From the NCBI RefSeq assembly GCF_002072955.1, contig NZ_LPUF01000001.1:2378896-2442895 (forward strand): a stretch of 64,000 nucleotides of DNA. Reading direction: 5' to 3'. How positions within the stretch are numbered: the first letter of the stretch is position 1; each line of letters begins with the position of its first letter. Source of the DNA: Methyloprofundus sedimenti (GTDB lineage: Bacteria > Pseudomonadota > Gammaproteobacteria > Methylococcales > Methylomonadaceae). The notes below the pieces were generated by a model. That model saw only the letters and a list, made by a program, of their open reading frames with translations. It was not told the DNA's origin and searched no databases. Shown piece by piece: positions 11,982 through 32,454 of the stretch. Both the position numbers and the translations under genes were made by a program.

Positions 11982-14771
11982 TTACTTCAAGTAATCTACT
12001 CCAATCCCGCGTACTTTATCTTCGTGATGGTAATATTTATATTTAGACAAAGCCTCGATACCATGACAATCAACACAGAAAGTTTTCTCTACGCCTTTAT
12101 GACGTAAAAAACTATTGCTTATATCACCCTCAATATTTTCCTGTTTTTTATAATCTAGAACTGGGTAATCTTTTTCTTTCGAATCTATTAAAGGTTTCCA
12201 GCTATGCGGGTCATGACAAGTAATACAGGCTATTGCACCTAATTCGGAGATCTTTTCATGATTGGTTTCTACTAAAGGCATCACTTTTTCATCAGAACGT
12301 AAAACCATATCCTGATATGGGTGCCCGTAAAACGCGATTGGTTTTTCTTTGCCTATACTGTCTTTTTGATGACAATTCATGCACATTTCATCTATCCTAA
12401 AACCAGGGGCTGTTTTATCTCGCGCCTGAACCTTTGTATTTATAACCGATGACAGGAATGGGCTTTTTGCTTCACCCCTATGTAAAGTATGACAGGCTCC
12501 ACAGGCACCTGATTGAAGCGCTGTTTCTTCCTGCTGGTTTTGCGTTTCATCCGCGCTGACACGTAAATCATGATCCGTCCCTATCAACCGCTGCTTGCCA
12601 GCATGACAATTCTCACATAGCTGACCATCACGATGATCCTGTAGTAACGCAGGTGTGTTAGGCTTGCCAGAGTGCACAGCATGACAGCTTAAACAACCAA
12701 TCTTTTTTACCTCTACCCCTGCAATTTTTATCACCTCATCCAGCTCCAGATTCATTGGGTGAATGCCTTTTTTAGCCGCGTCTTTTTCATCCTTGGCATG
12801 TTGTCGTTCATGACAGTCGAGACATAATTTTTCAGCATCTTTTATTTTGTCTGTATATAAAGCAGTTCCCAGAGTTCCTTTATGTACACTGTGACAACTT
12901 GAGCATTGTACTGTTTTAACTTTTACGCCACGGATTTCAAGTGCTTCTTCCAGCTCAACATTCACTGGGTGAACTCCGGCTTTCCGTGCCGCTTTTTCAT
13001 CCTTAGGTGCCTGACGTTTATGACAACTTGCGCAAAGCGCGCCATTTTCATCAGTCTGAGTCAGTAGGTTTTTGGTCTTGCCTTCATGTACTTGATGACA
13101 GGATTGACAAGCGATTGCATCGTCTTTGGCCAAAACACCGCCACCCGCTAGCAGAATTTTAGGCAACCCTTTTTGTAAATGTGGATCATCTGTGGATAGA
13201 TGCTGCGCTTTCTTTTCTGGTTTTTGCATTTTGACACCCAAAGGGTGATTCAAGCCAAATTGTCCGGCGTCTTCCCTACCCGATTTTTTAGTATTTTTCT
13301 CATGACAGGCCTCACACTGCTCACTACCGTAATCCGTTCCTCGTAACCAGGCATTATGGTTTTCTTCATATAAAGACTGAGGTTGTTCATTATCATTATG
13401 TGGCGTATGACAACTCGTACAACTTAGGTCATTTTTATCGCTATGTGGGTATAATTCAGGGATTTTATCCTTACGCAAGGGTTCTTTGTAATACGTCTGT
13501 TTTTTTTCTTGCGTGTCATAAACAGTAGGATGTTGATGACCGAATGGAATGGCTTGCCGGGAATCAAAAACCGCTCCATGATGACAGCTGTAACACATAT
13601 TAACCGACGCAACAGGCAAAACGTTCTCGGAATCAAGCATTTTAGTGACATCGTCATTATTTCCCCAGCTAAAATGACAGACAACACAGTTCTTTCGTGA
13701 TATTTCTTTTTGTTGTTCAGGTAGCGAGACTAAAACCTGATAGCCAAGTTGTATTTTTTGTATTAGATTAGCCTGAGAGTCTACTACATAGAGATACCCA
13801 GAGGGATCGTAAAATAATCGAGACGGTGTGGTCAATTTAATAACTTGCCCGGTCATATCTTGTAATAACCCTAAAAAACGTCCTTGATAATAAAGACTGA
13901 TCGTCCCTAAATAACTATCACTTATATATTGATAATCCAGTGCATCAAAAACATTACCATTAGGCCGGTACATTTTATCCAGAGAAAAACGACCTGTTTG
14001 TGAATAATAGCGCCCCCCTCGATCGAACACTTGCACCCTGGCATTCAACACATCGACAACATTCAAATAACCATCCCGGTCTTGTGCAATTTGAAACGGG
14101 AACTGAAACTGTCCTTCCATTTCACCGCGTTCACCTACACAGTGTTTTTCTTTTCCACCCGATAATTCTAAATAACAGATACGATGCCAACGACGGTCTG
14201 CATAAATCAGTTCATTCTCTCGAACCAGTAGAGAGACGGGCTCGGGTAATGCGGATAAAGATTTAGGTTCCTTTGTCTCTTGCACTTTTGAACCATCTTC
14301 TGCTTCTAGTGACACTGGTGCCGTTAAATTAAAATCGCCTAACCATTTTCCCTGTAAGGAAAAACAGCTGATTTTATGTTGTAACGTATCTGCAACGTAT
14401 AACACGTTGTTATCAATAGCCAGCGCCATTGCCCGGTCAAAGCGATGTTTGGTCTTTGCTGTATTGATCTCCCGTATTAATTGACCTTCAGTTGATAAAA
14501 CAACAATTCGCGAATTTAACCCATCTAGTACATAAAGCAAACCTTGTGCGTCACTGACAATATCACTGGGCTGGTTGAAATTCGATTGTATCTCTATACG
14601 CTCTTTAGCCATGGGAATTTGCTGAGCGGCTGAGACAACTTGTGTTGGCAGCAATATAAGGAAAATTGCCGCCAACAGCCTGCAAAAAAAAACAAACAGT
14701 GGTAAAAACAAGTGCAAGACCTTCTTTACCAGAGTTTGAAATACAATCTTACTTTTTAAGTTACTCAGCAT
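11982..14771 (-). CDS. NHL-repeat / 14-heme c-type cytochrome fusion
   Basis: A 929-residue exported protein. A hydrophobic N-terminus (to about residue 50) is followed by an NHL-type propeller (about 55-350, with repeats such as QPSDIVSDAQGLLYVLD and DGYLNVVDVLNARVQVFD), then a C-terminal region with 14 CxxCH heme-binding sites. Two neighbouring heme pairs are clear internal duplicates: each has CxxCHxRQ, a KDEK segment, HPxNxELxE and a second CxxCHxVHxG. It is the last gene of the operon, and its start codon overlaps the upstream stop by one base. The size and the fusion suggest a large periplasmic or surface electron-transfer protein whose propeller may dock a partner. Its role is inferred from context only. 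Confidence 0.85.
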   Translation of the reverse strand: MLSNLKSKIVFQTLVKKVLHLFLPLFVFFCRLLAAIFLILLPTQVVSAAQQIPMAKERIEIQSNFNQPSDIVSDAQGLLYVLDGLNSRIVVLSTEGQLIREINTAKTKHRFDRAMALAIDNNVLYVADTLQHKISCFSLQGKWLGDFNLTAPVSLEAEDGSKVQETKEPKSLSALPEPVSLLVRENELIYADRRWHRICYLELSGGKEKHCVGERGEMEGQFQFPFQIAQDRDGYLNVVDVLNARVQVFDRGGRYYSQTGRFSLDKMYRPNGNVFDALDYQYISDSYLGTISLYYQGRFLGLLQDMTGQVIKLTTPSRLFYDPSGYLYVVDSQANLIQKIQLGYQVLVSLPEQQKEISRKNCVVCHFSWGNNDDVTKMLDSENVLPVASVNMCYSCHHGAVFDSRQAIPFGHQHPTVYDTQEKKQTYYKEPLRKDKIPELYPHSDKNDLSCTSCHTPHNDNEQPQSLYEENHNAWLRGTDYGSEQCEACHEKNTKKSGREDAGQFGLNHPLGVKMQKPEKKAQHLSTDDPHLQKGLPKILLAGGGVLAKDDAIACQSCHQVHEGKTKNLLTQTDENGALCASCHKRQAPKDEKAARKAGVHPVNVELEEALEIRGVKVKTVQCSSCHSVHKGTLGTALYTDKIKDAEKLCLDCHERQHAKDEKDAAKKGIHPMNLELDEVIKIAGVEVKKIGCLSCHAVHSGKPNTPALLQDHRDGQLCENCHAGKQRLIGTDHDLRVSADETQNQQEETALQSGACGACHTLHRGEAKSPFLSSVINTKVQARDKTAPGFRIDEMCMNCHQKDSIGKEKPIAFYGHPYQDMVLRSDEKVMPLVETNHEKISELGAIACITCHDPHSWKPLIDSKEKDYPVLDYKKQENIEGDISNSFLRHKGVEKTFCVDCHGIEALSKYKYYHHEDKVRGIGVDYLK

Positions 14772-15607
14772 TATTTTAATAAACTCATGATCCGGATACG
14801 CTGTTCTTCATCCTTATAACGACTGAAAAACTGAGTCACAATATTATTCTGAATTTTTTGTAACTGATATCTTGTCGCTCCTAACTCAGCAAGATCAAGT
14901 AACGGATTCTTCTCGTTATGACAAGCCTCACACTTTGGCCCTTTTTCAGTTAAAGGGGCGTGTATCAAAGCCCTGCGCTCTGCCTTTAGTTCCAAAGCGC
15001 TCCCTTCTTGTTGCCAAAGTTTTCTGGTTTCTTCTGCAAACGCGTTATCGTTACGCAAACCGATGGCTTGCTGCTGATAAAACGGAGTTATTTTATAAAA
15101 AGAGTTAATTACATAAGTATCTTTGGTGATCACTTTTTTTTCAGGTAAGCTCGTGTCTTTATTCTCAGCTTCCACAGCCTGACGAAATAATTTTGGCTTG
15201 GGAGTAACAATACTTGCATCACGGGTATCTTGCCATTGATAACTTAACTGTACGTTCTCAGGCCGAAAATGGCAGGTTTCACAAGCGATATACTGAGTAT
15301 GCATATTCATAAATGTACGACTGCGTATACTTTTTGTATGTGGAGGAGAAAGATGACAAGTTGTACAAAAGCTATTTCCCAGAGAAGCATCTTCTTTACC
15401 GCGCTTATGAAACGGAGGCACTTCCAGCTCTCCTCTTAAAACAATCTGTTTATGTTCTGTCACTTGCTTGAGTGATTTCTGTCTCTGCTCTTCAGTCAGT
15501 TGGGTATTATTTAGCGTTTGCAGGTATAAGCCTTCTGCCCATAAAACATTTGAGATACTGCATAGCAGCATAACCAATACTATTCTACCAACCATGCTAG
15601 ACTCCAT
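14771..15607 (-). CDS. Three-heme c-type cytochrome-like protein
   Basis: A 278-residue exported protein with a signal peptide (VGRIVLVMLLCSISNVLWAE) and only three CxxCH sites: FCTTCH near residue 82, ACETCHF near 110, and KCEACHN near 228. The middle is hydrophilic and free of cysteine. The first ATG overlaps the upstream gene by 11 bases; a second in-frame ATG (15595) begins just after the upstream stop and gives a more compact signal peptide, so either could be used. Its position between the membrane-anchored 8-heme cytochrome and the NHL/14-heme protein implies translational coupling and a role in the same complex. I recognise no characterised homologue. Confidence 0.8.
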   Translation of the reverse strand: MESSMVGRIVLVMLLCSISNVLWAEGLYLQTLNNTQLTEEQRQKSLKQVTEHKQIVLRGELEVPPFHKRGKEDASLGNSFCTTCHLSPPHTKSIRSRTFMNMHTQYIACETCHFRPENVQLSYQWQDTRDASIVTPKPKLFRQAVEAENKDTSLPEKKVITKDTYVINSFYKITPFYQQQAIGLRNDNAFAEETRKLWQQEGSALELKAERRALIHAPLTEKGPKCEACHNEKNPLLDLAELGATRYQLQKIQNNIVTQFFSRYKDEEQRIRIMSLLK

Positions 15608-16979
15608 TATCTTCTTGATTAATATTGGTTTTTAGCTGTTTAGCATTACTTTCACCTGAAGCTTCTGACTTTTCTTTTTGCTTTGTATCACCTGATACTT
15701 GAGTAGCCCCAGTTTCAGCGATAACTGCTTTCTCAGTCACCTCGGCTCTCGGTTTAGGCGCTTTTTTTACTGCAGCACCTTTCGCTGCAGTCTTACGCTT
15801 CGCTTTCGATTTACGCCCTATCATAACGCGCTCAAAACGATCACCACCGACAATGGGAATGATTTTCTTGACATGACGAAAACCTATCCACCAGATCGCA
15901 CTACTTATTGCAAAAACCAAACCGGCCAATAACAAGGGCCAACTACTCCAGAACCACTTTGATTCAAACAAGGCCTCTGCCTGAAACGGCTTATGCATTC
16001 GTGTTAAACTGAGCAATGACATGTCATGCATATCGGTCAGGGTAAAGCCTTCATTACCCGGTTTTTTAGCATAACCATGACAATCCGATTGGCCACAGGT
16101 TTTCGGTAAATTATCCGGATGTGACGCAGACTGAGGGTCAGTAAAAGCACGTATTTCATGCTTCCAGCCTTCAGGTGAATGGCAATCGATACACGAAGCA
16201 CCATACGCGGAACCATCGACTATTAAACGTCCATGCAGAGTCTTGGCATAGCTGTCTGCACTATGCACGAAGCGGTCACTCGGAGAGTGTTTTTCCAAAG
16301 TCTCTGGATCTTCTTGTTCAACATCGCGCATTTTATCCAGATCACCATGGCAGGCAATACACATGTCATTATTTTCCTGGTTATTCCAGCGCCGCCCCAC
16401 CAGTCTCCTTAAAATATGCCCACCAAATTGTCCCATCCAGGCCTGGCCTTGATGACAGTTACCACACTCGGTTTCGGCATGATCAAAATCAGCTTTGAAT
16501 TGCTCTAACTGTGTTTCAGCAATATAGAGGGTATTACTATGACAGCGACGACAAGAAGGGTCTTGTTCAGTTTCAATCTCTTCCAGTCGATTGCCGCCAG
16601 TTAAGCCTTTATACCAGCCCCCTTCATGAACTGATTTAACCATTTCTTCATGAATGACATCATGCGAGTATTTAACCCCTTTCGAAGGCTCTTCAATATG
16701 GCAAGACTCACTACAATCCGCTTCCGTATTTTCTACTTCATGCGGATAATCGACTACCTCCCGATGGCAATCTTTGCATGGCACACTACCATGCAAGGAG
16801 CTCGCATAGTGACTACTATCAATCGTAGCGCTGCGCATAACCCCAAATTCATCTATATAATCTAGCCCTTTATAAGCATGACAAGACAAACACCCATCAG
16901 GGTCACTATATCGTGAATTAGCATAAACCTGCTCGTGACCCTGTACGAAAAACAATGTGAACAAAAAAATACGAAACAC
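15597..16979 (-). CDS. Membrane-anchored octaheme c-type cytochrome
   Basis: A 460-residue protein with a signal peptide, six standard CxxCH sites, one CX3CH (CSESCH) and one CX4CH (CGQSDCH), so probably eight hemes. A single transmembrane helix follows (about 345-367, SWPLLLAGLVFAISSAIWWI), then a basic Lys/Ala-rich cytoplasmic tail of about 90 residues. The start is GTG; an in-frame stop lies a few codons upstream and no ATG is available. This topology (periplasmic heme domain plus one helix) suits an inner-membrane quinol-linked electron-transfer subunit acting with the NapH-like protein encoded just upstream. The long charged tail is unusual for such cytochromes. Confidence 0.83.
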   Translation of the reverse strand: MFRIFLFTLFFVQGHEQVYANSRYSDPDGCLSCHAYKGLDYIDEFGVMRSATIDSSHYASSLHGSVPCKDCHREVVDYPHEVENTEADCSESCHIEEPSKGVKYSHDVIHEEMVKSVHEGGWYKGLTGGNRLEEIETEQDPSCRRCHSNTLYIAETQLEQFKADFDHAETECGNCHQGQAWMGQFGGHILRRLVGRRWNNQENNDMCIACHGDLDKMRDVEQEDPETLEKHSPSDRFVHSADSYAKTLHGRLIVDGSAYGASCIDCHSPEGWKHEIRAFTDPQSASHPDNLPKTCGQSDCHGYAKKPGNEGFTLTDMHDMSLLSLTRMHKPFQAEALFESKWFWSSWPLLLAGLVFAISSAIWWIGFRHVKKIIPIVGGDRFERVMIGRKSKAKRKTAAKGAAVKKAPKPRAEVTEKAVIAETGATQVSGDTKQKEKSEASGESNAKQLKTNINQEDNGV

Positions 16980-17008
16980 GCCTACGACAACCCTAATCTA
17001 CTAATGTA

Positions 17009-18052
17009 TTATAAAAAGGAACCAACAATCACAATTGATATGACGGTTAGTAAAATCATCGCATTGACCACACTGACCCAACTGACCGCGGGCCCAGCTT
17101 TTGTATCCCCTCCTTTATTAACATCAAAATGTATGGCCTGCCAATTAGGTAATGGGAAAATTTCAGTATTCTTTTTAATCCGTTTGGGTTCATTCACTTT
17201 ATGACTAGGAGGTGTTGTCCATGCCAGAGCGTTCCAGTCACAGACATCAACACATTCATGACAAGACATGCATGAGACTTGATCTACAGTGGCAATTTTA
17301 TCGACCATCTTAATAGCTCCACACATACAATTACGAGCACAAATATTACAGCCGGTACAACGCTCTTTCGCCACTCGAATACGACGTGCAAACGGAAAAT
17401 TGGCACCAATGCGATTCACAAGTCCATCTGCTGCTCCAATAGGACACATAAACTGACAGTACGCTCTGCCTTTACTGGCAAAGACACCCAGTAGTAGCAA
17501 TAAACCCAGATTCACCATACCAACACTCGAAACCAGAAAAACCATGCCTCGATACTCACCACTCATGGCTTCTATTAATCGAGGGATGGTGATGAAATTA
17601 CATAAACTACAGGCACTGATACCTAAAGCCGGCATAGCTACAAGAAAAAAACCAAAATAACCGTAACGAATTTGTACCTGAGGTAAGGAACGAAATTCTA
17701 TTTTCCAGCGATCATTCAGCATCCGTGAGCTTAATTCAGCCAAACCACCCACTGGGCATAGATAACCACACCACATCCGTCCAAAAAATAAAGTCGTCAG
17801 CATAATCAGGCTAAATGCCATCACCCCGATAGCAGCTGCATTCACATGCACGAAAAAATCCTCCCAGCTCATGCCTGGAAAATATAAATAAAAGCGGCGC
17901 ATGCATAAAGACCCGCACAAATCATCGCTACCGACTAACTGTGGCAAAAAAGCCAGGGGGCCGAGCATACTCGCACTCGCTAGAATTATCAGAAAATATC
18001 GGTACTTCTGAACTTTAGGGATTGCTTTTATATCGTTTATGACTTGCATCAC
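17009..18052 (-). CDS. NapH/NosR-like membrane-bound polyferredoxin (quinol dehydrogenase type)
   Basis: A 347-residue membrane protein with about five or six helices, the two CxxxCP motifs of NapH/CcoG-like proteins (CGYLCPVG and CQFMCPIG), a CSLCN motif, then two 4Fe-4S cluster motifs (CTGCNICARNC and CMSCHECVDVC) and one more C-terminal helix. Family members pass electrons from menaquinol or ubiquinol to periplasmic cytochromes. Here it is flanked by cytochrome genes and no napG, napA or nosZ is present, so it probably feeds the multiheme chain instead of nitrate or N2O reductase. The CMSCH within the second cluster looks like a heme site but is better read as part of the ferredoxin motif. 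Confidence 0.87.
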   Translation of the reverse strand: MMQVINDIKAIPKVQKYRYFLIILASASMLGPLAFLPQLVGSDDLCGSLCMRRFYLYFPGMSWEDFFVHVNAAAIGVMAFSLIMLTTLFFGRMWCGYLCPVGGLAELSSRMLNDRWKIEFRSLPQVQIRYGYFGFFLVAMPALGISACSLCNFITIPRLIEAMSGEYRGMVFLVSSVGMVNLGLLLLLGVFASKGRAYCQFMCPIGAADGLVNRIGANFPFARRIRVAKERCTGCNICARNCMCGAIKMVDKIATVDQVSCMSCHECVDVCDWNALAWTTPPSHKVNEPKRIKKNTEIFPLPNWQAIHFDVNKGGDTKAGPAVSWVSVVNAMILLTVISIVIVGSFL

Positions 18053-18070
18053 TCTTCCTTTTTTGTTGTT

Positions 18071-18952
18071 TTAATCTTTAAAATCATGACAAACCAGACA
18101 CAATTGACCATCCTTAGCAGGCAAGCGTAATAAAGCCTCCTGAGTAATGCGCTGATAAGAGAATTGAACATTCATATTATGTAACTGGTTAAACGCTTGT
18201 AACCGGGCATCCTTATCCGCTGAAAACACTTCATTCCAGGGGTGCTCTTCATACTCGATACCTTTTTCTAGATCCTCAATAACGACTTGATTACCCGCTG
18301 GTTTTTCAGGATCAATCACCCCATATTGATGTGGTGTATGACAGCTGATACAAATAACTTCTTCTTTTTCGCTAAGCGGTACCAGAATATTCAATTCTTT
18401 ACTGTGCTTATGAATACGCTCCAGCATCTCCTTTTGCGCGGGCTTAACCTGATGTTCGACAGAATTAAAATGAGGGTCTTTTAAATGACAGCCATAGCAA
18501 ATTTTCTGCATCGACACACGTAACTTTAGTTCTGAAGACTCTAGTTTTTTATCTCGATCCGGCACTTCTTCATGGCAAAAAGTACAATTTTTCTTTTTAA
18601 TTTCACCTTGCGAATCCAGCATGACATGAATATTGTCTCGTTGCGTTTTTTCCTCATCATGACAGCGATAACAAAAGCCGGTAATACGTCTATAACTGCC
18701 ACCGATCAAAAAATCTACTGAATTTTTGTCTACTTTCTCAACAGATGTTTTATCAATATCCTTTAGTCCATGACAGGTAGCGCAAATTAATTCACCCTGC
18801 TCCCCTAATTTAAACTTTTCAGGCACCTCAATCGCCTTTGATGGTTTAACACCGACAATATGATGAAAAGGGGGTAATTCAGGTTTCTCTTCTGCAAACA
18901 CAACCGTTGCGAAACCAAAAAGAATAAAAACACGAATAATTTTATCATGCAC
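18071..18952 (-). CDS. Hexaheme periplasmic-type c cytochrome
   Basis: About 293 residues when started at the GTG at 18952, two bases after the upstream stop codon. This places a signal peptide (RVFILFGFATVVFAEE) at the N-terminus. A longer frame starting at 19003 overlaps the upstream gene by 49 bases and looks less likely. Six CxxCH sites are present: CATCH, CYRCH, CTFCH, CYGCH, CISCH and CLVCH. No membrane anchor follows the signal peptide. Likely a soluble periplasmic electron carrier in the conduit; redox partner unknown. Confidence 0.83.
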   Translation of the reverse strand: MHDKIIRVFILFGFATVVFAEEKPELPPFHHIVGVKPSKAIEVPEKFKLGEQGELICATCHGLKDIDKTSVEKVDKNSVDFLIGGSYRRITGFCYRCHDEEKTQRDNIHVMLDSQGEIKKKNCTFCHEEVPDRDKKLESSELKLRVSMQKICYGCHLKDPHFNSVEHQVKPAQKEMLERIHKHSKELNILVPLSEKEEVICISCHTPHQYGVIDPEKPAGNQVVIEDLEKGIEYEEHPWNEVFSADKDARLQAFNQLHNMNVQFSYQRITQEALLRLPAKDGQLCLVCHDFKD

Positions 18953-18954
18953 CC

Positions 18955-19944
18955 TTAAAGCCCTGTTTGTACAGCCATGCCATGCACATGGCAATCGAGA
19001 CAAGATCCACCGACCTGATGCACACCACTCAATCCATTACCTGTATCTTCATCTGACTCTTCTACCTGAAACTCTGACTCATGACAAACAACACAATGTT
19101 GCGCATAGTTGCCATTTTCTACATCAATAAAAACCGGTTGCGAGCGTACTTGTGGGGGTAATAAAAAAGCGCCCGTATCACTACGATCAATGATCAATTT
19201 TTCATTATGAGTACCGTGCATTGCATGACAGTCAGTACATTCCACTAAGCTGCCATATTGATATCCGCTGTCTCGTAAACCTGCATAAGTACGCTCTCCA
19301 CTCCCTTTAGGATAACCATGCTTATCAATATATCGATAATTTTTTTCCATCATAACCAGCGGATCACGCAAGAATCGTGGCGTCATTTCATAACCCGGCT
19401 GCTGTTTATCCTGATTATGACAACGTAAACAAAACTCGGTTTGATTACTGTATGGTAAATCCAGACCCCGTTGATTGATGAAGTGTGTTAAATCCACACT
19501 GGCTTCAAATTTACCATCCATATCAGAGCTATCATGACAGGCGATACATTCCGAATCAGCTAGAATACTGTCTTTATCCACGTTAAAATTATGGTTTTTA
19601 ATCTCATTCATTATCGGGTTTTTAGGCAATAATGCAGAATTATGGCAAAGCACACACTTTCTTGGCGCTGACGTTCCATTCTGACCATGGCACCCCGTAC
19701 AACTTGCATAACCGGTCTGTAAAACAATGTCACGTATCTCTGGAACAGTGCGGTGAATATTGCGCCTTACATGACAGGCTGCACAATCACTTTGCCCCCA
19801 GGCACTACCATCACTGCCATGAGTTTTAGTTAATAAGATTTGATTATTTGCCAGTGAAACATCACGCGCATAAAGCGTTTGACTGGCCATTAACAAACTC
19901 GCCAAGAAAAAAATTTCGATAAATAATGAACGATATTTACGCAT
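18955..19944 (-). CDS. Octaheme periplasmic-type c cytochrome
   Basis: A 329-residue protein with an N-terminal signal peptide (FFLASLLMASQTLYA) and eight CxxCH sites: CAACH, CTGCH, CVLCH, CIACH, CLRCH, CTDCH, CVVCH and CLDCH. Several histidines lie between the sites and could be distal axial ligands, as expected for bis-His multiheme cytochromes. It sits two bases downstream of the heptaheme gene in the operon. No transmembrane segment beyond the signal. A soluble periplasmic carrier, or the heme wire inside a porin-cytochrome complex, would both fit; the sequence does not decide. Confidence 0.85.
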   Translation of the reverse strand: MRKYRSLFIEIFFLASLLMASQTLYARDVSLANNQILLTKTHGSDGSAWGQSDCAACHVRRNIHRTVPEIRDIVLQTGYASCTGCHGQNGTSAPRKCVLCHNSALLPKNPIMNEIKNHNFNVDKDSILADSECIACHDSSDMDGKFEASVDLTHFINQRGLDLPYSNQTEFCLRCHNQDKQQPGYEMTPRFLRDPLVMMEKNYRYIDKHGYPKGSGERTYAGLRDSGYQYGSLVECTDCHAMHGTHNEKLIIDRSDTGAFLLPPQVRSQPVFIDVENGNYAQHCVVCHESEFQVEESDEDTGNGLSGVHQVGGSCLDCHVHGMAVQTGL

Positions 19945-19946
19945 AA

Positions 19947-20588
19947 TTATTGATTATGACAATCCTGGCAATAAAATGAGTTATGGCATTGTGCGCAATT
20001 AGCAGGCATCATGCGCGCTTCTAAACCATGTCGATTTATATAGTTTAAAGGATGATAAGAGCGATTAAGTGTATCCCGCCGGAAATGGCAATTCGTACAA
20101 AACTTCTGGTCTAAATGACACGTTTCACATATCGCGGTATCTTGCTTACTATCCTCCTGATGATTCTGGATGTAGCCAGAGTTATGATCGGCTGGCCAGA
20201 TTTTTTTGGGATCATCATGGCAAAGGTTACAACGCCACGGTCCTCGTAATTCAGTCACATGACAATCATGGCAAATGGCCTCAAGCGGCTCATTGGCAAC
20301 CGTATTAAGCGGCTTACGTTTGGTTTCATCATGTTCATCATTTTTCTGAAAAGCGTGGCAAAGTAAACAACTATCCCCTTCCTCTTTCATGACTTCATAA
20401 TGCACTTTATGCGGATAATAAATATCACTGCGTTGATCTCGTTTTTCCCACCAGGTTGCTTCTTTCTTATTATCTTTCGGATCCTGGCTCTGCTTTTCCT
20501 GACCTGGCACGGTAGGAATGAAGGGCTGTTCTGCTGCAACGCAAACCATACTCAGAGACAATAACAAACTATAAATAATCCAACGCAT
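19947..20588 (-). CDS. Heptaheme c-type cytochrome
   Basis: A 213-residue protein with signal peptide (YSLLLSLSMVCVAAE) and seven CxxCH sites (CLLCH, CHDCH, CNLCH, CETCH, CTNCH, CAQCH, CQDCH), a dense heme content for its size (one per about 27 mature residues). Its ATG overlaps the stop codon of the beta-barrel gene, so the two are probably translated together. In known porin-cytochrome complexes a small multiheme protein encoded next to the porin threads the barrel; this protein and the following octaheme one are the natural candidates here. Confidence 0.85.
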   Translation of the reverse strand: MRWIIYSLLLSLSMVCVAAEQPFIPTVPGQEKQSQDPKDNKKEATWWEKRDQRSDIYYPHKVHYEVMKEEGDSCLLCHAFQKNDEHDETKRKPLNTVANEPLEAICHDCHVTELRGPWRCNLCHDDPKKIWPADHNSGYIQNHQEDSKQDTAICETCHLDQKFCTNCHFRRDTLNRSYHPLNYINRHGLEARMMPANCAQCHNSFYCQDCHNQ

Positions 20589-21865
20589 TACAACTTGGCC
20601 TTTGGCTGAAAATTATCGAAATACCAGGTCGCTTGCAAGCCTGCCTGATATTCATTATCTAAGCGGGAATTAACAATATAACTACCCGATATATCGATAA
20701 AAACATCACTGAATAATTTATACCGATAGCCCAACTGCGTTCCTGCTGCTTTATTCTGACCATAAAGGGGGCTCTCATCCAGTGAATACGCTAGATCCAA
20801 AACCAATAAAGATTTTCTTGATAAAGAGTATTCAGAACTAAAGTACAGGTTATAACTACTACTGGTCCCAAATTCGAGCATATCAAAATCGCCACTGAGC
20901 ACAAAGTTTCTAAAATAATGACTCCGCACACCCGCATCAAATCCGTAGCCAATATCTTCCCCTTCATTTCTGGCTGCCCGCTTACCACCGATATGATAGG
21001 AAAATGTCTCGGTCAGTTCCTGATCATAACTGACTCTTACTAGATCCTGACGCCCTTGATGATAATCGCTGTAAAACTTTTCTTTAAACGTAGGATAAGG
21101 GATTTTTGGCTCATATAATGAATAGCTGACGCGGATGCGACTTGCTTCAGTAATATCCAGTAATAAGCTACTGTATACTTCTTCAAAAACACCCGTATTT
21201 GTTTCTAATGTTGCCATGAAAGAAAGTTCATACGCATGCAGGTAACTTTGTTCAAACTCCCCTTCGATGGTATTAGCCATAGTTAAGCGGGTTGAAGTAT
21301 GCTCATCATGGAATTGCTGAAAGCCAAAGCGAAACAACCAGGTTTTAATCGGCAAGATCCTATTATCCCAATCGAGTTGCTGATTACTCATTAGCTCAAG
21401 TCCATAGAGCCAGTCACCTTGAACAGTACGTACATCCTCCTGACGTGTTGGTCTACCACCATAAACATTAAATGTTAAACCCTGGTTAGGTAGCTGATAG
21501 CGCACCGCGACGCCATCCAGGCTATAAAACCCTAAACTATCCGAACGTTGAAAACGTCCAGCTTGTATGGTGGTATCCCATTGTTCTATCAGTTTTTCAA
21601 TAACAAGTTGATAAATATCACCCTCAAACCCAAATAAACTACTCTGCCTGGCAACAAAATCTAAGGATGTCCGCCAACTTTCATTATCAAATGCGACAAA
21701 ACTACCCCACACTTCACCAAAAACCTGAGAATCATCCGTGTAACGAGTATAACGATTATCGCCTTGAACTTTTGCCTTTACAGTACCATTCCAGTTCCAG
21801 GCACTATTCGCACTGGGCATAGGTAATAACAATACAGTTGATAAAAAAAAAGGAACGGCCTTCAT
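20588..21865 (-). CDS. Outer-membrane beta-barrel protein of the cytochrome operon
   Basis: A 425-residue protein with signal peptide (FFLSTVLLLPMPSANSAW) and alternating hydrophobic/polar strands rich in Tyr, Phe and Trp throughout, typical of a large outer-membrane barrel. Examples are SLDGVAVRYQLPNQGLTFNV and YNLYFSSEYSLSRKSLLVL. There are no cysteines, so it binds no heme. Position next to hepta- and octaheme genes is the arrangement of porin-cytochrome electron conduits (MtrB-, Omb- or PCC-like in concept). I see no signature tying it to a named porin family, and it lacks an obvious MtrB-type CxxC motif. Confidence 0.8.
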   Translation of the reverse strand: MKAVPFFLSTVLLLPMPSANSAWNWNGTVKAKVQGDNRYTRYTDDSQVFGEVWGSFVAFDNESWRTSLDFVARQSSLFGFEGDIYQLVIEKLIEQWDTTIQAGRFQRSDSLGFYSLDGVAVRYQLPNQGLTFNVYGGRPTRQEDVRTVQGDWLYGLELMSNQQLDWDNRILPIKTWLFRFGFQQFHDEHTSTRLTMANTIEGEFEQSYLHAYELSFMATLETNTGVFEEVYSSLLLDITEASRIRVSYSLYEPKIPYPTFKEKFYSDYHQGRQDLVRVSYDQELTETFSYHIGGKRAARNEGEDIGYGFDAGVRSHYFRNFVLSGDFDMLEFGTSSSYNLYFSSEYSLSRKSLLVLDLAYSLDESPLYGQNKAAGTQLGYRYKLFSDVFIDISGSYIVNSRLDNEYQAGLQATWYFDNFQPKAKL

Positions 21866-21884
21866 GCAAATAAATTCTTCAGCC

Positions 21885-22130
21885 TTAGTGATTATAAAAG
21901 TCGTCGCCTTGACGTTTTTTTATCATGGCCCAACCGACCAGTGATCCTAAAGCCACCACACACCCACCACAAACAGCACAACGCCCTTGTTGTGGAAGAG
22001 TACAGCTCGATGCAGTTAACAAATGCCCCGCCGCGATACCTGCACCAAACAACCAGGGAATACTTTGATTAAGACGTGTTATGGATGCATCACTTTTCAC
22101 ACTCTCACTTAAATCACCTACTTTTTTCAT
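21885..22130 (-). CDS. Small Cys-rich membrane protein heading the cytochrome operon
   Basis: About 81 residues when started at the ATG at 22130, which has a GGGAAGG ribosome-binding site; a longer frame from 22157 lacks one. A polar N-terminus is followed by two hydrophobic segments (SIPWLFGAGIAAGHLLTAS and GGCVVALGSLVGWAMI) separated by a short loop with four cysteines (C-T-L-P-Q-Q-G-R-C-A-V-C-G-G-C). The clustered cysteines could bind a metal or cluster, or form disulfides. It is the first gene of the nine-gene operon, directly after a terminator-like hairpin. I do not recognise the family and give no function. Confidence 0.7.
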   Translation of the reverse strand: MKKVGDLSESVKSDASITRLNQSIPWLFGAGIAAGHLLTASSCTLPQQGRCAVCGGCVVALGSLVGWAMIKKRQGDDFYNH

Positions 22131-22159
22131 TAATTTACCTTCCCTCTTAAACAACAAAA

Positions 22160-22184
22160 GGAGCGCCTAAACTACAGGCGCTCC
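22160..22184 (-). terminator. Terminator/attenuator-like hairpin before the cytochrome operon
   Basis: A perfect 9-bp stem, GGAGCGCCT with AGGCGCTCC, around a 7-base loop. On the minus strand it is followed directly by TTTTGTTGTTT. It ends 30 bases before the ATG of the first operon gene, which leaves no room for a conventional promoter in between. Transcripts of the operon should therefore read through it, as in attenuation control. Confidence 0.65.
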
Positions 22185-23050
22185 CCAGAAAATAGACTCT
22201 CACAAGCGAGAATTCGCGAGAATGATAAGTCTGATGCTTAACAAAATAACCATTCTAGTAACTAGCTTCGCTAAATATATCCTTATCAAACCATAAGTTA
22301 GACATTTTATTTTTGGCTAAGGCTTCCTTGTAAAACTATTTTTACTTGCCCCTGGTTGCATCCCTGCACTATATTTTGTTCCCCTATTCCCTAGTGAAAC
22401 TCCTTATTTCCTTTATTATCCTAAAAAGCCAAAGCTTATCCCTTTACTTTGATTCGGCAATCCTTTGCCTCCTTGCCTATACTGCTTTCCTAAACAGTTC
22501 CTTAATCCCTGCATTGAGCATCCCGCCCTGCACTATCCTAAATCAAAATCCATATCAAACACAGATCCATTTGCGCCACTCCTAGTCAGTTTAACGTCCA
22601 GTCAAACAGGAAAATACCCTCTCGAATAAATTCCTTCTATTGAAATTGATACAGTCCCTACATCAATACCAACACAACATATAAAGCACCATCCATGCCA
22701 AAAATACATACCTGTAAATAATTTATGTATTTTGAGAAAATATTACTATTAATTCAATACCTTAAAATAATAAAATCTATTGAAATAAAAAATAGCTAGT
22801 CGCAAACCGCCCTAATTAATACATAATTAACAGGCTAAATGCCGCAACTACCCGACAAACCTAAGGCATTTGCCTTACTTTATTTTTAGTTCAGTTTACC
22901 TTCGAAAAGTGCCCTTTTTTAACAAAAGACACCCATAGCACTAACTGTTCTCCCATAGATTGAAAGCATAAAAAAAGGGGAAGTAAAATACCCCCCCCTT
23001 CTTTTTTAATGCCTGATAATAAAACTCAGGCGATTTAAGCTAGATCGTTA
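22185..23050. other. Long intergenic region upstream of the cytochrome operon
   Basis: No convincing gene. The plus strand is pyrimidine-rich, with an 80-codon frame that looks like chance. A 16-base inverted repeat CTTAT-N6-ATAAG at 22282-22297 could be an operator. On the minus strand a small hairpin (GGCAA/TTGCC) lies around 22460, and the segment between it and the attenuator is rich in GGG/AGGG runs. The operon promoter must lie here. I looked for the c-di-GMP-I (GEMM) consensus and did not find it. The distal end holds the terminator of the 916-residue cytochrome gene. Confidence 0.5.
22970..22998 (-). terminator. Intrinsic terminator after the 916-residue cytochrome gene
   Basis: On the minus strand a G-run and a C-run (paired GGGG/CCCC extended by A-T pairs) enclose a loop of about ten bases and are followed by seven T. 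It lies about 50 bp past the stop codon. The mirror arrangement (T-run on the plus strand at 23002-23007) could also stop transcription from the other side. Confidence 0.7.
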
Positions 23051-25801
23051 TTATTTATCCGCAATAACAAAATAGCCTGGTTCAGTTGTTTTAAAGATGA
23101 CATAACCTTCTTCATCATCGCTAGCAGGCACTATCATTAACAGATCCGACTCAAGTGCTTTGTAGACAGAATTCAATGCCCAGTTAGCCATAATGACATT
23201 AATATCGCTTAGATTGGTTTTAGTACCTTTATAAGCGACTTTAATAAACATTGGCACCCCATTATAGCTATCCACATGCTTTTTACTGCTATCACGTATA
23301 TCAAAGAAATATACATTGGAGCGCAATTTCCCATAAGAACGTGCATCCAGGATGCCTTGCGCGGCATCTTCCGCGCCATTTATTAATCCTAAAGCACCGC
23401 GATAAGTCGGGAACAGGATGTTATTAACAGTATTACCGTCAATTGCCGCCGCCATGTTTCTTAAGTTAAAGTTACCTTTATTAACTTGAAACACGAAAGT
23501 ATCAGTGCTAGGAAGATCTGGAGCCATTAAGCCGCCAAGCTCCGGTCCAAGAGCGTGTAGCAGGCTGTCTGTATTAAACTTTTTGAACTCACCGATAATC
23601 TCGGAAGCGCTGGAGTTTTTCAGACGACTCATAAAGGGATCAATTTTGGTCTCAAACAGAACATCTGAAACATTCTCAGTAATATCACCATTAGCCTGTA
23701 GTTTCATATAAGACAAGTCTAGCTTATAAAGTCCTTCTTCTACCAGACGTGGATCAGGAATGGTTCTAATTACTTGTGAATTAGCCTCACCGAGAATACC
23801 TTTGGGTGAAATCAATGCACTAAATGCACCACTTTGTTTACGTTCATGGCATTCCTCACACTGCACTGAGTCAGGTGATGGGCGCGTATTATGAGAAATA
23901 ATATACTCATTTGATTCGCTCAACACTTCAGCTGTATCAGGGTTTTTGTAGCCTTTTTGAGTGAGTAAAGCATCATAAGCTTTTTTTAGCGCAACATACT
24001 GCTCATAAGTTTCAGGAGGAAGTACGGTTGGTGAGGGCGCACCGCCACCATGGCCGGCAACCAGTTTAACCGGAAGTGTACCCAGTGATTCGCCGGTAAT
24101 GACATTTTTAATATTGCCATAAGGATTGCCTTCAGCATCTTCAAGAATTTCCTTAACGACAAGAAGCTCGTATTTTGCCAATATGCGCTTGCTTACTTTA
24201 TCTTGCCAGTAACTGCGAACTCTAGGGTTATAAGGTACCATGGTTGACTTGCCATTTGCAGCAATGCGGTAACGATACATTAACTGAATAGGTGTACCAC
24301 GACTTTTCTTATTATTGATATGACACGCCTGACAAGAAACTACATCAAAGTGAGTTTTGGTTATTTTTGTTAAGGACTCTTTACTATAGCCCGCCATATC
24401 GCCACTCGCTTTCCATAGTTCACGGTGAGCATCCAGTAAGGTGTCGTGACCTGAAGGAACAACCGCATTTTTTGAGTTGATATGGCACGCTTCACAGGAT
24501 TTTGCATTAGGCGCATAGTCTAAATCATTGCGCACATCATTGTCTGAGTTCCCTTTTGGGAAATCATGATTAGCGTCTAAATCAACATTAGCTAGTGGCG
24601 ACTTGAAATACTGCTTCGCATGACAAGAATTACAATTTTCAATATCACGGGTTTGGCCATTGTCATCGGTGTAGCTTTTGCCTTTATGTACATCGTCCTG
24701 ATAATCATCCACCAAAGTACCATCAGCAGCATCTTGACCTGCTTCGGTCAGCGTTGCAGCTGCAGCATCACCGAAACCGTAAAAACCGCGACGTGAATTA
24801 CTGGTTAAGTGACAATCCATGCAATTTTCGTTAGCAGGAAAGCGTAACATAGGAATGGTAGTTCTGCCGTTTTCATCAAAGGCATCGGCATGCCAGTTAA
24901 AAATAGGCATACCTTTTTCATCTAGTGTAGGCTGCATCGTTGCGGCGCCACCACCATGAGCCGCATGTTCTCCACCTTGCATTGATCTGGCTACGGTCAC
25001 CAGGTTTTTACCGTCTTTATCAACGACTAATTCCATTAGACCTGATGCTGCCTGGCGAAAAAAGCCTTTACTAGCAAATTGTGAACGGGCAGTCCTGGGA
25101 GACGGAATGAGTGTTGTAAGGCCGCTATCTTCTGGAATTTTTAAATTAGAAATGTCTACATGACAGAACATACAGTCTGCTTCACCAACGCCACTTTTTT
25201 TCCAGTCCCAGAGCACTAAAGTTTGTTCTCCGGTGACGCTATCAACTTCACGTTCATAGTAATCGCCATCATTGAGGGCAATATCTTCGATCTTTTTTTC
25301 ATCATAGCGAATGCCATCACGGTCTCTTTCAGCCCAGCCTCCACCAACATGACAAGACATGCAGTTTTTGACCTGATGCGCAGAACCATAGTCTGCAAAA
25401 TCCAATGGATTCGAGTTGGTTTTTTTGGCTAAAACGGTTGGCGTATCGCCCCCCATACAGTTATAGCCACCGTAATAGCCAGGAGAGACCAGATGTGGTA
25501 AACCGCGTGTAGCGCCATAAGTATCACTGGCTTCATCGCGTCCTTGCTGGAAATGAAATGCATGCGTTAAGGCCTCATAATCATGACAGCCACTCCCCGC
25601 ACAACTTTTTTTCGGGCTATACGGATTATTAGATTCCAGTACATGATTACCCTGCTCATCGAGCAAAGGGATCGGTGGGTGATTAACAGGCTTATCAAAC
25701 GCGTTCATCACCGCGTAACTGTTAGTAAACATGAAAAGTAGATACAAACAACTCAGATTAATGAGCCATTGCTGCTTTCCATGAGGTTTTGTTGATTTCA
25801 T
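23051..25801 (-). CDS. Large octaheme c-type cytochrome (exported)
   Basis: A 916-residue protein with an N-terminal signal peptide (LINLSCLYLLFMFTNSYA), one CX4CH site (SCAGSGCH, near residue 67) and seven CxxCH sites (CMSCH, CMFCH, CMDCH, CNSCH, CEACH, CQACH, CEECH). The last lies near residue 650, leaving a heme-free C-terminal domain of about 260 residues. Low heme density and long insertions (for example a Gly/His-rich stretch GGEHAAHGGGAATMQ) are typical of surface-exposed or enzymatic multiheme proteins, not simple wires. A strong ribosome site (GGAGGGG) precedes the ATG. It is transcribed separately but in the same direction as the nine-gene operon; a catalytic or terminal extracellular partner role is inferred. 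Confidence 0.87.
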   Translation of the reverse strand: MKSTKPHGKQQWLINLSCLYLLFMFTNSYAVMNAFDKPVNHPPIPLLDEQGNHVLESNNPYSPKKSCAGSGCHDYEALTHAFHFQQGRDEASDTYGATRGLPHLVSPGYYGGYNCMGGDTPTVLAKKTNSNPLDFADYGSAHQVKNCMSCHVGGGWAERDRDGIRYDEKKIEDIALNDGDYYEREVDSVTGEQTLVLWDWKKSGVGEADCMFCHVDISNLKIPEDSGLTTLIPSPRTARSQFASKGFFRQAASGLMELVVDKDGKNLVTVARSMQGGEHAAHGGGAATMQPTLDEKGMPIFNWHADAFDENGRTTIPMLRFPANENCMDCHLTSNSRRGFYGFGDAAAATLTEAGQDAADGTLVDDYQDDVHKGKSYTDDNGQTRDIENCNSCHAKQYFKSPLANVDLDANHDFPKGNSDNDVRNDLDYAPNAKSCEACHINSKNAVVPSGHDTLLDAHRELWKASGDMAGYSKESLTKITKTHFDVVSCQACHINNKKSRGTPIQLMYRYRIAANGKSTMVPYNPRVRSYWQDKVSKRILAKYELLVVKEILEDAEGNPYGNIKNVITGESLGTLPVKLVAGHGGGAPSPTVLPPETYEQYVALKKAYDALLTQKGYKNPDTAEVLSESNEYIISHNTRPSPDSVQCEECHERKQSGAFSALISPKGILGEANSQVIRTIPDPRLVEEGLYKLDLSYMKLQANGDITENVSDVLFETKIDPFMSRLKNSSASEIIGEFKKFNTDSLLHALGPELGGLMAPDLPSTDTFVFQVNKGNFNLRNMAAAIDGNTVNNILFPTYRGALGLINGAEDAAQGILDARSYGKLRSNVYFFDIRDSSKKHVDSYNGVPMFIKVAYKGTKTNLSDINVIMANWALNSVYKALESDLLMIVPASDDEEGYVIFKTTEPGYFVIADK

Positions 25802-26682: not shown

Positions 26683-27951
26683 TTATTCCACTATTTTATC
26701 AATCACCAGAGTCAGCTCTTCACCCTTATGCACTGCAACCTGCTTTGCTGTGACGTAAAAATCCCCTTTAGTGGCTCTCGGACTGCCTGATATGGCAACG
26801 CGAGCTGTGATATCAACAAACTCAGCTGAGGAGATTTTTGCAGTGGGCATCGCCGCTTTTGTATCATCCAGTATGATAGTTATCGGCAAATCCTGTACTT
26901 GCAATCTTTCTGCCGCTAATGGCATAGGCATTCCCGCTTTAGCGAAAACAAACACACGATCCTGACCACTCACTTTGGCACGCAATGCAGGGCTTATATC
27001 CAGATTAATTTTAATACTTGCCGATGCTATGACAGCCTCTTGTGCTGGTTTTGCTTGCTGTACGGGAGCCGGTTCACCTGACTGCTTACGCGCTTCGGCA
27101 ATAGCAGGGTCAATAAAGTTGCTGACCAGTGCATTCCCGGCTTTGATTTTAGCTTTTTCCCACGAACTAATTGCCTTTGCGTAGGATTGTTGCTGATACG
27201 CATCCAGACCCTTTAAAATTAGTGCTGTAGGTTCTTCTGGATCAACTCTTAAAGCTTCATCTATCGCTACCTGCACCACTGGAATCATTCGCTCACCCGC
27301 CACTTGATACATCATCTGCGCGTAAGCTGCTTTTGCCGCTGCGTAGCCCGGGTTATTTTCTCCTAACAAGCCCGCAATTTGCTTATATACATCGCCCGCC
27401 TGTTGAAAATCTCCCATTGCAGCATAGGTATTTGCCAGCAGAAACCATTTTTCAATATCTTCAGGGTTTTCAGCTAATTTTGCTTTTAAAGCAATTAATG
27501 CAACCGAAAAATCAGTAGTGGTTTGTTGATGTTCTTCTGGACTATCAGCTAAGGCTAAATATTGTTGGAATTTATCACTGGCCCCCAGGCTGTTATAGGT
27601 TGCCAGACTACCCAGAATAAACACACTGGCAATAACAGCCATGACCAGCCAGTGCTGGATACCAGCGATATTAGCTGTTTTAACTATAGGCTGCTCTACA
27701 AACTGTACATCACCTAATAATGTTTTTTCCAGTTCCGTTTTTAATTGCTGAAAGGTGGATGCATCAAGATTGCCTTGTGTTTGTTCATTTTCCAGTTCTG
27801 CCAGACGCTCCTTAAATATGCTGATATTTTTCTGTTTCTGTGAAATACCTTGCTCATTGTTTTGCGTCCCTTTATAAATAGCTAAGGGCCACAATAATAG
27901 AATTACTGCCAGCAATAACATGGCTGCAATAACTATCCATAGTGTCATCAT
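26683..27951 (-). CDS. ccmI: Cytochrome c biogenesis protein CcmI
   Basis: A 422-residue apocytochrome chaperone of the System I heme-lyase complex. Two transmembrane segments (about residues 3-20 and 100-120) flank a cytoplasmic loop. TPR repeats of the periplasmic domain follow (WFLLANTYAAMGDFQQAGDVYK; ALILKGLDAYQQQSYAKAISS), then a C-terminal CcmI/CycH beta domain (SGQDRVFVFAKAGMPMPLAA). The C-terminal domain binds the apocytochrome CxxCH tail in studied systems. Start overlaps the ccmH stop by one base. Last gene of the ccm operon. Confidence 0.93.
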   Translation of the reverse strand: MMTLWIVIAAMLLLAVILLLWPLAIYKGTQNNEQGISQKQKNISIFKERLAELENEQTQGNLDASTFQQLKTELEKTLLGDVQFVEQPIVKTANIAGIQHWLVMAVIASVFILGSLATYNSLGASDKFQQYLALADSPEEHQQTTTDFSVALIALKAKLAENPEDIEKWFLLANTYAAMGDFQQAGDVYKQIAGLLGENNPGYAAAKAAYAQMMYQVAGERMIPVVQVAIDEALRVDPEEPTALILKGLDAYQQQSYAKAISSWEKAKIKAGNALVSNFIDPAIAEARKQSGEPAPVQQAKPAQEAVIASASIKINLDISPALRAKVSGQDRVFVFAKAGMPMPLAAERLQVQDLPITIILDDTKAAMPTAKISSAEFVDITARVAISGSPRATKGDFYVTAKQVAVHKGEELTLVIDKIVE

Positions 27952-28439
27952 TATTTTTTTCCTTGTTTTGTTTTAAGCAAAGCATCCAGAGTTTTGGCTT
28001 CGCTATTAGATAGTGATGGCGCATGATCATTAGCTTCTTTATAAGCTTTGTTGCGGCTACGAATAATCAAAACGACAACCAGCAGACCTAATAATAAAAA
28101 CAGGCCTGGTCCAAACCAAAGCAGATAGGTTTGTGGTTTTACTCGTGGTTCATAGAGTACAAAGTCACCATAACGCTCGACCATATAGTCAACAATTTCA
28201 TCATCGCTTTTACCCGCATTCAACATCTGGAAAATTTTAGTACGCAAATCCTGAGAAATTTCTGCATTTGAGTCAGCAATATTTTGGTTTTGACATTTAG
28301 GACAGCGCAATTCAAAAGTCAGATGCTGAAAACGCTTTTCCTTTTCTGGGTCATCGAATTGATATACATCGATCGCAGCTGATAACATAAAACTGCTTAG
28401 CAGTATCAATAAACCGAATATTATTTTAATTTTCAACAC
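27951..28439 (-). CDS. ccmH: Cytochrome c biogenesis thioredoxin-like protein CcmH
   Basis: A 162-residue membrane-anchored periplasmic protein with a signal peptide, the redox motif LRCPKCQNQNIADSN, the helical domain ending with YGDFVLYEPRVKP, and a C-terminal transmembrane helix (YLLWFGPGLFLLLGLLVVVL). It reduces the apocytochrome cysteines (or resolves mixed disulfides with CcmG) before heme attachment. Single-domain CcmH, with CcmI as a separate gene, as in Pseudomonas. Overlaps the end of ccmG by 14 bases. Confidence 0.95.
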   Translation of the reverse strand: MLKIKIIFGLLILLSSFMLSAAIDVYQFDDPEKEKRFQHLTFELRCPKCQNQNIADSNAEISQDLRTKIFQMLNAGKSDDEIVDYMVERYGDFVLYEPRVKPQTYLLWFGPGLFLLLGLLVVVLIIRSRNKAYKEANDHAPSLSNSEAKTLDALLKTKQGKK

Positions 28440-30913: not shown

Positions 30914-31347
30914 TTGGCAACCTCCTGCTTTTTCTTCATCGACTCTGCAATTTCTGGCGGCATATAGTTCTCATCGTGTTTCGCTAAGACTTCATCTGCC
31001 TGGAAAATGCCATTCGCATCCATTTTTCCCTGCGCAATAATACCCTGCCCTTCACGAAATAAATCCGGCAAAATGCCAGTGAATTCGACCACCACCTGAT
31101 GCTCAAAATCGGTTATTGCAAACTGTACTTTTAATGAATCTGTTGACCTTTTAACACTGCCATCAACGACCATTCCGCCTGCACGAATTCTAGCGCCTAC
31201 TGGAGCTTCACCTTCAGCAATCTGGCTAGTTGAATAAAATAAATTAATATTCTCACTCAGAGAATACATCACCAGGCCTACTATCAAGGCTGTGCCGAAA
31301 ACCAAGCCTAAAATAATGCTTAATCTTTTTTTTCTTTTTGGGGTCAT
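30910..31347 (-). CDS. ccmE: Heme chaperone CcmE
   Basis: A 145-residue membrane-anchored periplasmic OB-fold protein that carries heme covalently to CcmF. N-terminal anchor ([20 protein letters not shown]) and the heme-binding histidine in [14 protein letters not shown], with the usual tyrosine four residues later. Overlaps ccmD by four bases. Confidence 0.96.
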
Positions 31348-32417: not shown

Positions 32418-32454
32418 CCTTAAGCATTAATCAATGCAAATATCTTAAAACCAA

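Follow-up and report, generated by a model that had tools for sequence, protein, structure and literature searches.

An outward electron conduit of the MCA0424 type is the probable product of a ten-gene barrel and multiheme cytochrome locus in Methyloprofundus sedimenti

The closest described relative of the gene set reported here is a putative eleven-gene operon of Methylococcus capsulatus Bath that starts at MCA0424, encodes eight multiheme cytochromes with 58 heme motifs, and includes a beta-barrel, MCA0427 (Larsen and Karlsen, PMC4831470). The same account reports that the listed cytochrome genes are induced 2.3 to 8.6-fold in copper-limited cells producing soluble methane monooxygenase (sMMO) and that MCA0424 and MCA0426 are detected in the surface fraction, and it already suggests electron transfer to the exterior (PMC4831470). 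Additionally, M. capsulatus reduces ferrihydrite and yields anodic current, more after copper-free growth (Tanaka et al., PMC6281684). Oxygen-poor water and sediment are among the places where aerobic methanotrophs oxidise methane, and the pathway by which M. capsulatus delivers electrons to iron oxide and anodes is still unsettled. Here we describe a gene set of this type in Methyloprofundus sedimenti, on a 64,000-nucleotide stretch of contig NZ_LPUF01000001.1 (positions 2,378,896 to 2,442,895; hereafter the window). We conclude, with a probability of roughly 0.7, that the set forms an outward trans-envelope electron conduit of the MCA0424 type.

Nine genes (g1 to g9) are packed on the minus strand within 11982-22130, with neighbours that overlap by 1-11 bases or are separated by 2-29, as a preliminary description of this DNA had reported. 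Its total of 46 heme motifs (g3 7, g4 8, g5 6, g7 8, g8 3, g9 14) is also correct, provided that the eight of g7 are counted as six CXXCH, one CX3CH and one CX4CH; a CMSCH string in g6 sits in a ferredoxin motif and is left out. When the residues of the six cytochromes were shuffled 500 times, CXXCH averaged 0.21 and never exceeded 2; the real proteins contain 44. That description had omitted a gene, on the same strand 0.9 kb upstream of g1 (23051-25801), for an exported, surface-type octaheme cytochrome of 916 residues (7 CXXCH and 1 CX4CH). This tenth gene, which gave one match only in its own genome, extends the set to ten genes with 54 heme motifs, and to seven cytochromes with 51 CXXCH.

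Comparison with M. capsulatus was made on the locus of strain Texas (L054) rather than Bath, with MCA numbers mapped onto its genes by order and motif totals. The Texas locus contains 7+7+7+8+6+6+3+14 = 58 CXXCH, the same as published for Bath. The syntenic order of MCA0424-MCA0433 recurs in the window, together with the barrel, the 7-, 8-, 6-, 8-, 3- and 14-heme series, the Fe-S membrane protein and the surface-type octaheme gene, the tenth gene being 43 percent identical to the gene at the MCA0424 position. The window set differs in having no octaheme at the MCA0426 position, where the Texas gene is 51 percent identical to its MCA0424-position neighbour and 41 percent to the window's tenth gene, and no diflavin domain on g7. 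Eight cytochromes with 58 CXXCH are a feature of the Texas locus and not of the window, and we take the smaller number of cytochromes as variation inside the MCA0424 type, not as bearing on its definition. The gene set, which the preliminary description did not recognise, is not new, as it matches MCA0424-MCA0433 (PMC4831470); the features for which we found no description lie in the inner-membrane part.

That part begins with g6 (17009-18052, minus strand, 18 bases from g5), a polyferredoxin that carries two CX3CP pairs and two 4Fe-4S ferredoxin motifs, as NapH does. No other Fer4_5 protein was found in the genome, and g6 scores under the curated NCBIfam cut-offs (81.1 versus 213.05 bits for NapH/MauN, and 69.4 versus 234 for NapH); against PDB sequences it gave nine matches, every one to ferredoxin-type stretches. 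Hydropathy indicates five hydrophobic segments, two overlapping windows having been merged by hand, and the positive-inside pattern predicts a cytoplasmic N terminus and a periplasmic C terminus. Sixteen cysteines show no substitution in any sequence that covers them (48 to 51 of 51 sequences), and a seventeenth, C244, is variable and kept in 46 of the 51. On this predicted topology C46/C50 and C148/C151 face the periplasm, the CX3CP cysteines C95/C99 and C199/C203 face the cytoplasm, and the other eight lie in the ferredoxin part. The single NapH relative used for comparison, that of Escherichia coli, shares the CX3CP and ferredoxin cysteines and has no counterparts of C46, C50, C148 and C151. 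NapH-like proteins are thought to carry electrons through the membrane, in some cases from quinol (PMC8238504).

The partner of g6 appears to be g7 (15597-16979, minus strand, 29 bases from g6), an 8-heme cytochrome anchored once in the membrane at its C terminus, where it also has a basic tail. At seven loci (L044, L047, L048, L051, L065, L069 and L083), none placed in Methylococcales, g6 and g7 are joined in a single frame, which agrees with the predicted periplasmic C terminus of g6; the L083 frame spans 791 residues, with two ferredoxin motifs and 7+1+1 heme-like motifs. At another seven (L054, L049, L040, L041, L042, L045 and L053), with M. capsulatus Texas (L054), Methylothermaceae and a Nitrosomonas among the holders, g7 is followed after its anchor by a diflavin reductase. 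Flavodoxin_1, FAD_binding_1 and NAD_binding_1 of Pfam were found in the two of these domains that were tested (L054 and L049), and the other five were called by phmmer against the L054 domain, L040 ending at a contig edge. In a midpoint-rooted FastTree phylogeny of g6 and g7 (47 rows), the diflavin loci group together (support 0.989), and six fused loci, L083 not being in the tree, fall within a group of seven that includes the unfused L066 (support 0.999). The two fusions never occur together in the loci compared, and the window has neither. A CysJ-like protein, the genome's one strong diflavin match (45 percent identity to the fused domain) beside three weak partial ones, was considered as a separate partner for the window's g7 and rejected; its gene lies beside a glutamate synthase gene, outside the operon.

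Both fusion types thus point to a g6-g7 complex with one electron entry on the cytosolic face. We consider such a complex very likely from these sequences, and the diflavin fusions argue for, or at minimum add, a cytosolic donor. The preliminary description had linked the operon to the quinone pool; given the four g6 cysteines beyond those of E. coli NapH and the diflavin reductase on the g7 of relatives, that link is not supported as worded, and a quinone-pool origin is unproven, with quinol, ferredoxin and NAD(P)H all candidate donors in Methyloprofundus. Its broader idea of an outer-membrane conduit holds up better, being favoured by the pairing of barrel and 7-heme genes and of g6 and g7 across loci (given below), by a plugless 22-strand barrel model and by the M. 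capsulatus cluster. In the open-licence literature we found no description of the 16-cysteine bridge proposed for g6, of a NapH-octaheme fusion, or of an octaheme-diflavin fusion; the M. capsulatus g7 and g6 genes themselves were noticed already in 2004.

At the outer membrane, g2 (20588-21865, minus strand, 19 bases from g1) encodes a 425-residue protein modelled as a 22-strand beta-barrel with no plug domain (predicted local distance difference test, pLDDT, 86.6; predicted template modelling score 0.74), and neither MtrB_PioB nor any other Pfam family matches it at E 0.01. If unfilled, the predicted barrel would be a wide hole. The McLachlan formula gives the backbone diameter of a barrel from its strand number, and yields ~39 to 41 Å for 22 strands and ~47 Å for 26. 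In the 26-strand MtrB, the ten hemes of MtrA are arranged over 80 Å (PMC7198977); seven hemes at 8 Å each would span ~56 Å, roughly the thickness of a membrane. The adjoining g3 (19947-20588, minus strand, overlapping g2 by 1 base) encodes an exported 7-heme cytochrome in which the seven CXXCH and seven further histidines (H60, H63, H107, H135, H143, H179 and H187) are invariant in 29 sequences, sufficient for seven bis-His hemes. It has 30 residues per heme, signal peptide counted, where MtrA homologues have ~33, and low ratios have been linked to wires (PMC5566968). We infer from this that g3 is a candidate plug inside the barrel.

The exported 8-heme cytochrome g4 (18955-19944, minus strand, 2 bases from g3) has a lipobox in L048, L064, L065, L067 and L069, found by script, and in L044, found by eye, none of these being titled or placed as Methylococcales. 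This points to a membrane-anchored position in these relatives, and the residues after the lipobox suggest the outer membrane, by the lipoprotein sorting rule. The scan found lipoboxes in 9 of 54 g4 entries (5 distinct loci), 3 of 35 for g9, 1 of 40 for g8 and 0 of 35 for the tenth gene, and none in g3, g5 or g7 entries. Single matches mean little, because the barrel, expected to have none, gave 2 of 49. Elsewhere g4 is enlarged, to 24 hemes at L023:2728-5679 and 16 at L025:4753-6753, as though the wire were extended.

The 81-residue membrane protein g1 (21885-22130, minus strand) carries an invariant CxxPxxGxCxxCxxC; the preliminary description had called it Cys-rich, and its four cysteines are invariant in 26 aligned homologues. 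It has one hydrophobic segment above threshold and a second, shorter one recognised by eye, the side of its cysteines is uncertain, and no Pfam or NCBIfam family matches it at E 0.01. The exported 6-heme g5 (about 18071-18952, minus strand, 2 bases from g4) has a GTG start picked by eye, the open reading frame as listed beginning at 19003. An exported 3-heme protein, g8 (14771-15607, minus strand), overlaps g7 by 11 bases and is itself overlapped by 1 base by g9 (11982-14771, minus strand), an exported fusion of an NHL propeller and a 14-heme domain. The NHL assignment, also made in the preliminary description, passes the Pfam cut-off (37.8 versus 20 bits). At L020:5267-8599, g9 has 20 hemes rather than the usual 14.

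Synteny, which had been proposed as a check, was compared across 59 of 69 loci; the window itself (L001), the short pieces L056-L063 (most of them replaced by longer stretches, L057 excepted) and L068, which was below threshold, were left out. These loci are not all independent, as several are probably one species from two collections, and many stop at contig edges. Counting genes as neighbours when on the same strand with a gap of <600 bases, in loci containing both, gene order was kept for the tenth gene and g1 (30/34), g1-g2 (40/42), g2-g3 (41/41), g3-g4 (42/43), g4-g5 (37/38), g5-g6 (44/45), g6-g7 (48/48), g7-g8 (33/40) and g8-g9 (33/35); 21 of the 59 loci carry the complete ten-gene set. 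Among the seven loci where g7 and g8 are not such neighbours, the diflavin domain accounts for five, and an insertion of ~8 kb that splits the operon for two (L036 and L038). A distant gammaproteobacterium (L068:363-2977) has a 506-residue frame, barrel-like by eye, followed by a 363-residue many-heme protein with weak similarity to g3; the two may be a divergent porin-cytochrome pair.

The set is scattered within Methylococcales. In the relatives sample, 19 of 41 genomes have the barrel, among them 11 of 18 from the same genus (own genome included), and g6 matches at 82 to 89 percent came from Methyloprofundus, Methylomonas, Methylococcaceae and mussel gill methanotrophs. Of 301 Methylococcales genomes sampled, 47, from 15 of 50 genera, matched the g3 profile, always once each; in the class sample it matched 8 of 369, including the own genome, one genome of the same order and a weak match in G617 (1.5e-12), and in the phylum sample the own genome alone among 398. 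The g6 profile matched 6 of 274 genomes of the class sample at E 1e-20, all six also g3 genomes; G514 and G617, which may lie outside the g6 sample, have g3 with no listed g6 match. The set also occurs in Candidatus Venteria ishoeyi, a Nitrosomonas and a Chromatiales metagenome-assembled genome.

From the gene content, synteny, conserved residues and fusions we infer the following route. A cytosolic donor or quinol would reduce g6, whose ferredoxin motifs and two CX3CP pairs are predicted to face the cytoplasm. Electrons would cross the inner membrane in the g6-g7 complex, passing from the cysteine pairs that g6 is predicted to expose to the periplasm on to the g7 octaheme domain, and would be relayed through the periplasm by g5, g8 and possibly g9. 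The outer membrane would then be crossed through the 7-heme g3 seated in the 22-strand barrel, and g4 and the secreted octaheme of 23051-25801 may pass electrons to an outside acceptor such as a metal oxide, an electrode, humics or another cell. The small protein g1 may contain a metal or Fe-S site, or assist assembly. It is possible, although we regard it as doubtful, that the family as a whole is a cytoplasm-to-surface wire that could do without quinone, with g6 as a transmembrane Fe-S bridge feeding g7 directly. In such an arrangement the 16 invariant cysteines of g6 would hold clusters on both faces, in a ferredoxin pair, a CX3CP pair and, on the periplasmic face, a pair made of CX3C and CX2C. 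The attached NAD(P)H diflavin reductase would charge the wire in M. capsulatus, Methylothermaceae and a Nitrosomonas.

Several observations weigh against an outward conduit or parts of this route. Structure prediction, proposed in the preliminary description for the barrel together with the 7- and 8-heme proteins, yielded the g2 model above; for g3, AlphaFold2 with 29 sequences reached a pLDDT of only 47.5 and the model was discarded. Foldseek on g2 placed ordinary porins and ushers (MOMP, FimD, PapC and AlgE) first, with MtrB not among the best 50 of 962 matches; as these matches are generic, with TM scores of at most 0.49 among the same 50, a family assignment of g2 by fold was dropped. Profile searches of PDB sequences found no convincing relative of g2 or g3: the g2 profile gave three antiterminator matches (E 0.02 to 0.056) that we judged chance, and the g3 profile gave zero at E 0.01. 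In M. capsulatus, deletion of MCA0421, which adjoins the operon from outside, lowered maximum current merely from 118 to 86 nA per cm2, and no oxygen-free growth on Fe(III) was observed (PMC6281684). The role of CX3CP is itself debated, with disulphides thought likelier than a cluster on the ground of no more than 8 Fe per NosR (PMC5928378), and these iron counts speak against CX3CP clusters and an Fe-S bridge in g6. Finally, repression by copper could reflect metal acquisition.

Respiratory export nonetheless ranks as the best reading, and metal acquisition as its best rival. The same wire may be a surface reductase that supplies Cu(II) or Fe(III) for uptake, an assimilatory rather than a respiratory function, which we consider unlikely. 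The flavodoxin/FAD/NAD(P) reductase on g7 in seven relatives would suit it, presumably being laid out like metal reductases that draw on NAD(P)H, and 7 kb off the window encodes an RND efflux protein and a P-type ATPase for heavy metals. Copper limitation induces the M. capsulatus cluster, which lies amid TonB-family genes and has a FUR box predicted upstream of MCA0424 (PMC4831470). However, no Fur box is prominent in the window: the best site upstream of the tenth gene scores 11 of 19 and the best between the tenth gene and g1 scores 13, against a window background with a mean of 11.8 and a maximum of 15. Of 25 relatives scanned, three equal their own background maximum and the rest stay below theirs. 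No TonB family was found in the seven proteins scanned on the g9 side, and the set occurs also in a Nitrosomonas and a Venteria.

A conduit running inward, from Fe(II) or another outside donor to quinone or NAD(P), would draw on the similar plan of barrel-cytochrome systems in iron oxidisers (PMC10734462, PMC5566968), and multiheme chains are reversible in principle. We judge uptake very unlikely, given that methanotrophs and ammonia oxidisers already have a donor, that the diflavin fusions suit NAD(P)H in that role, and that electron export has been demonstrated for M. capsulatus (PMC6281684). Slightly less probable still is a periplasmic reductase pathway, for nitrite, hydroxylamine, tetrathionate or similar, beside an ordinary porin. 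The Foldseek ranking of the barrel (ordinary porins first among the best 50 of 962) is in keeping with it, and the tenth gene and g8 match the octaheme tetrathionate reductase family, but at 31.3 and 27.4 bits, far under the cut-off of 375. Pfam and NCBIfam scans reported no molybdenum or siroheme enzyme family for any of the ten proteins, the surface fraction contained the product of MCA0424 (PMC4831470), and the barrel adjoins the 7-heme gene at every locus that has both.

The surroundings of the set contain further signals. A terminator-like hairpin of 12 pairs with a T-rich tail (22158-22186, minus strand) lies 27 bases ahead of the g1 start, after the 0.9-kb gap, and is a possible attenuator or end of an upstream transcript; terminator-like sites in the region number 19 against 11.3 in shuffles. 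Five Rfam matches within 22100-23060 are all far under gathering scores, and promoter-like sites equal the shuffled expectation (38 versus 38.3), so none is claimed. Upstream of the tenth gene on the same strand runs a cytochrome c maturation series (26683-33746) comprising ccmA, B, C and E, CcmF/NrfE-family, DsbE-family and NrfF-like (below cut-off) genes and CcmI. Matches to the window's ccm proteins lie downstream of g9 in 14 of the 23 loci with >1.5 kb of sequence there, although the match is to ccmG only in L037, L039 and L054 (where it may be a general protein of the thioredoxin type) and to ccmA only, at a distance of 3.3 kb, in L014. The nearby ccm genes are consistent with a high demand for heme attachment. 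About 7 kb from the set, at 13-4730, the window encodes a P-type ATPase for heavy metals that carries HMBD domains, and an AcrB-family efflux protein that is truncated at the window start. The genome also has two reverse transcriptases of the group II intron type (RVT_1 plus GIIM), one at 39203-40567 of the window and one at L076:5078-6391, which share 99 percent identity over 437 residues.

The set is a concrete, deletable candidate for the extracellular reduction pathway of M. capsulatus, and the fusions in relatives, a diflavin domain and a single-chain g6-g7, offer a biochemical handle on electron entry. If cytosolic NAD(P)H is indeed vented outside, aerobic methane and ammonia oxidisers could discharge it externally, and models of hypoxic methane and ammonia oxidation would require a further electron sink. 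The inner-membrane architecture is the part most worth a second look.

Among known conduits, MtrCAB, MtoAB and PioAB share with the window set the plan of a barrel, a dense periplasmic multiheme protein and a surface multiheme protein. The window differs in a barrel that does not match MtrB_PioB and has 22 predicted strands rather than 26 (PMC7198977), in a candidate plug with seven hemes rather than ten, and in a NapH-like inner-membrane part. No ten-heme gene occurs in the set, and the DmsE model of the MtrA/DmsE decaheme family matches g4, g5, g8 and g9 at only 17.7 to 58.4 bits (cut-off 192.2) and g3 not at all at E 0.01. Elsewhere in the genome, MtrB/PioB appears only as a 59-residue frame whose matching part is interrupted by a stop (L080, G000:C1:1202910-1203101), perhaps a relic of another conduit. 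A Methylobacter porin-cytochrome cluster is likewise proposed for electron export in Methylococcales and has a scattered distribution; with its MtrA-family decaheme, MtrB/PioB barrel and two monohemes it is another system (PMC13322032). PCC3 and PCC4 also combine a barrel, multihemes and an inner-membrane protein with five transmembrane segments, but that protein has HX13H (PMC5566968), whereas g6, with its five predicted segments, has no HX13H and 16 invariant cysteines. The Uet system of Tenderiales resembles the set in its barrel, NHL-repeat proteins and triheme cytochromes, and differs in an undecaheme, a tetraheme and a peptidyl-prolyl isomerase, as described, that are not among the window's ten proteins (PMC10734462). 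The modules of NapH, NosR and RdhC share with g6 two CX3CP in a membrane module, and NapH also the ferredoxin motifs (PMC5928378, PMC8238504); g6 has four extra cysteines relative to E. coli NapH, a fifth segment, a predicted periplasmic C terminus, and an octaheme partner in a set from which NapG is absent. The set lacks the tested defining features of Mtr, PCC3/4 and Uet and resembles a porin-cytochrome conduit in how it would work. It belongs with the MCA0424 type of M. capsulatus, as a variant that has neither the second surface octaheme nor the diflavin domain.

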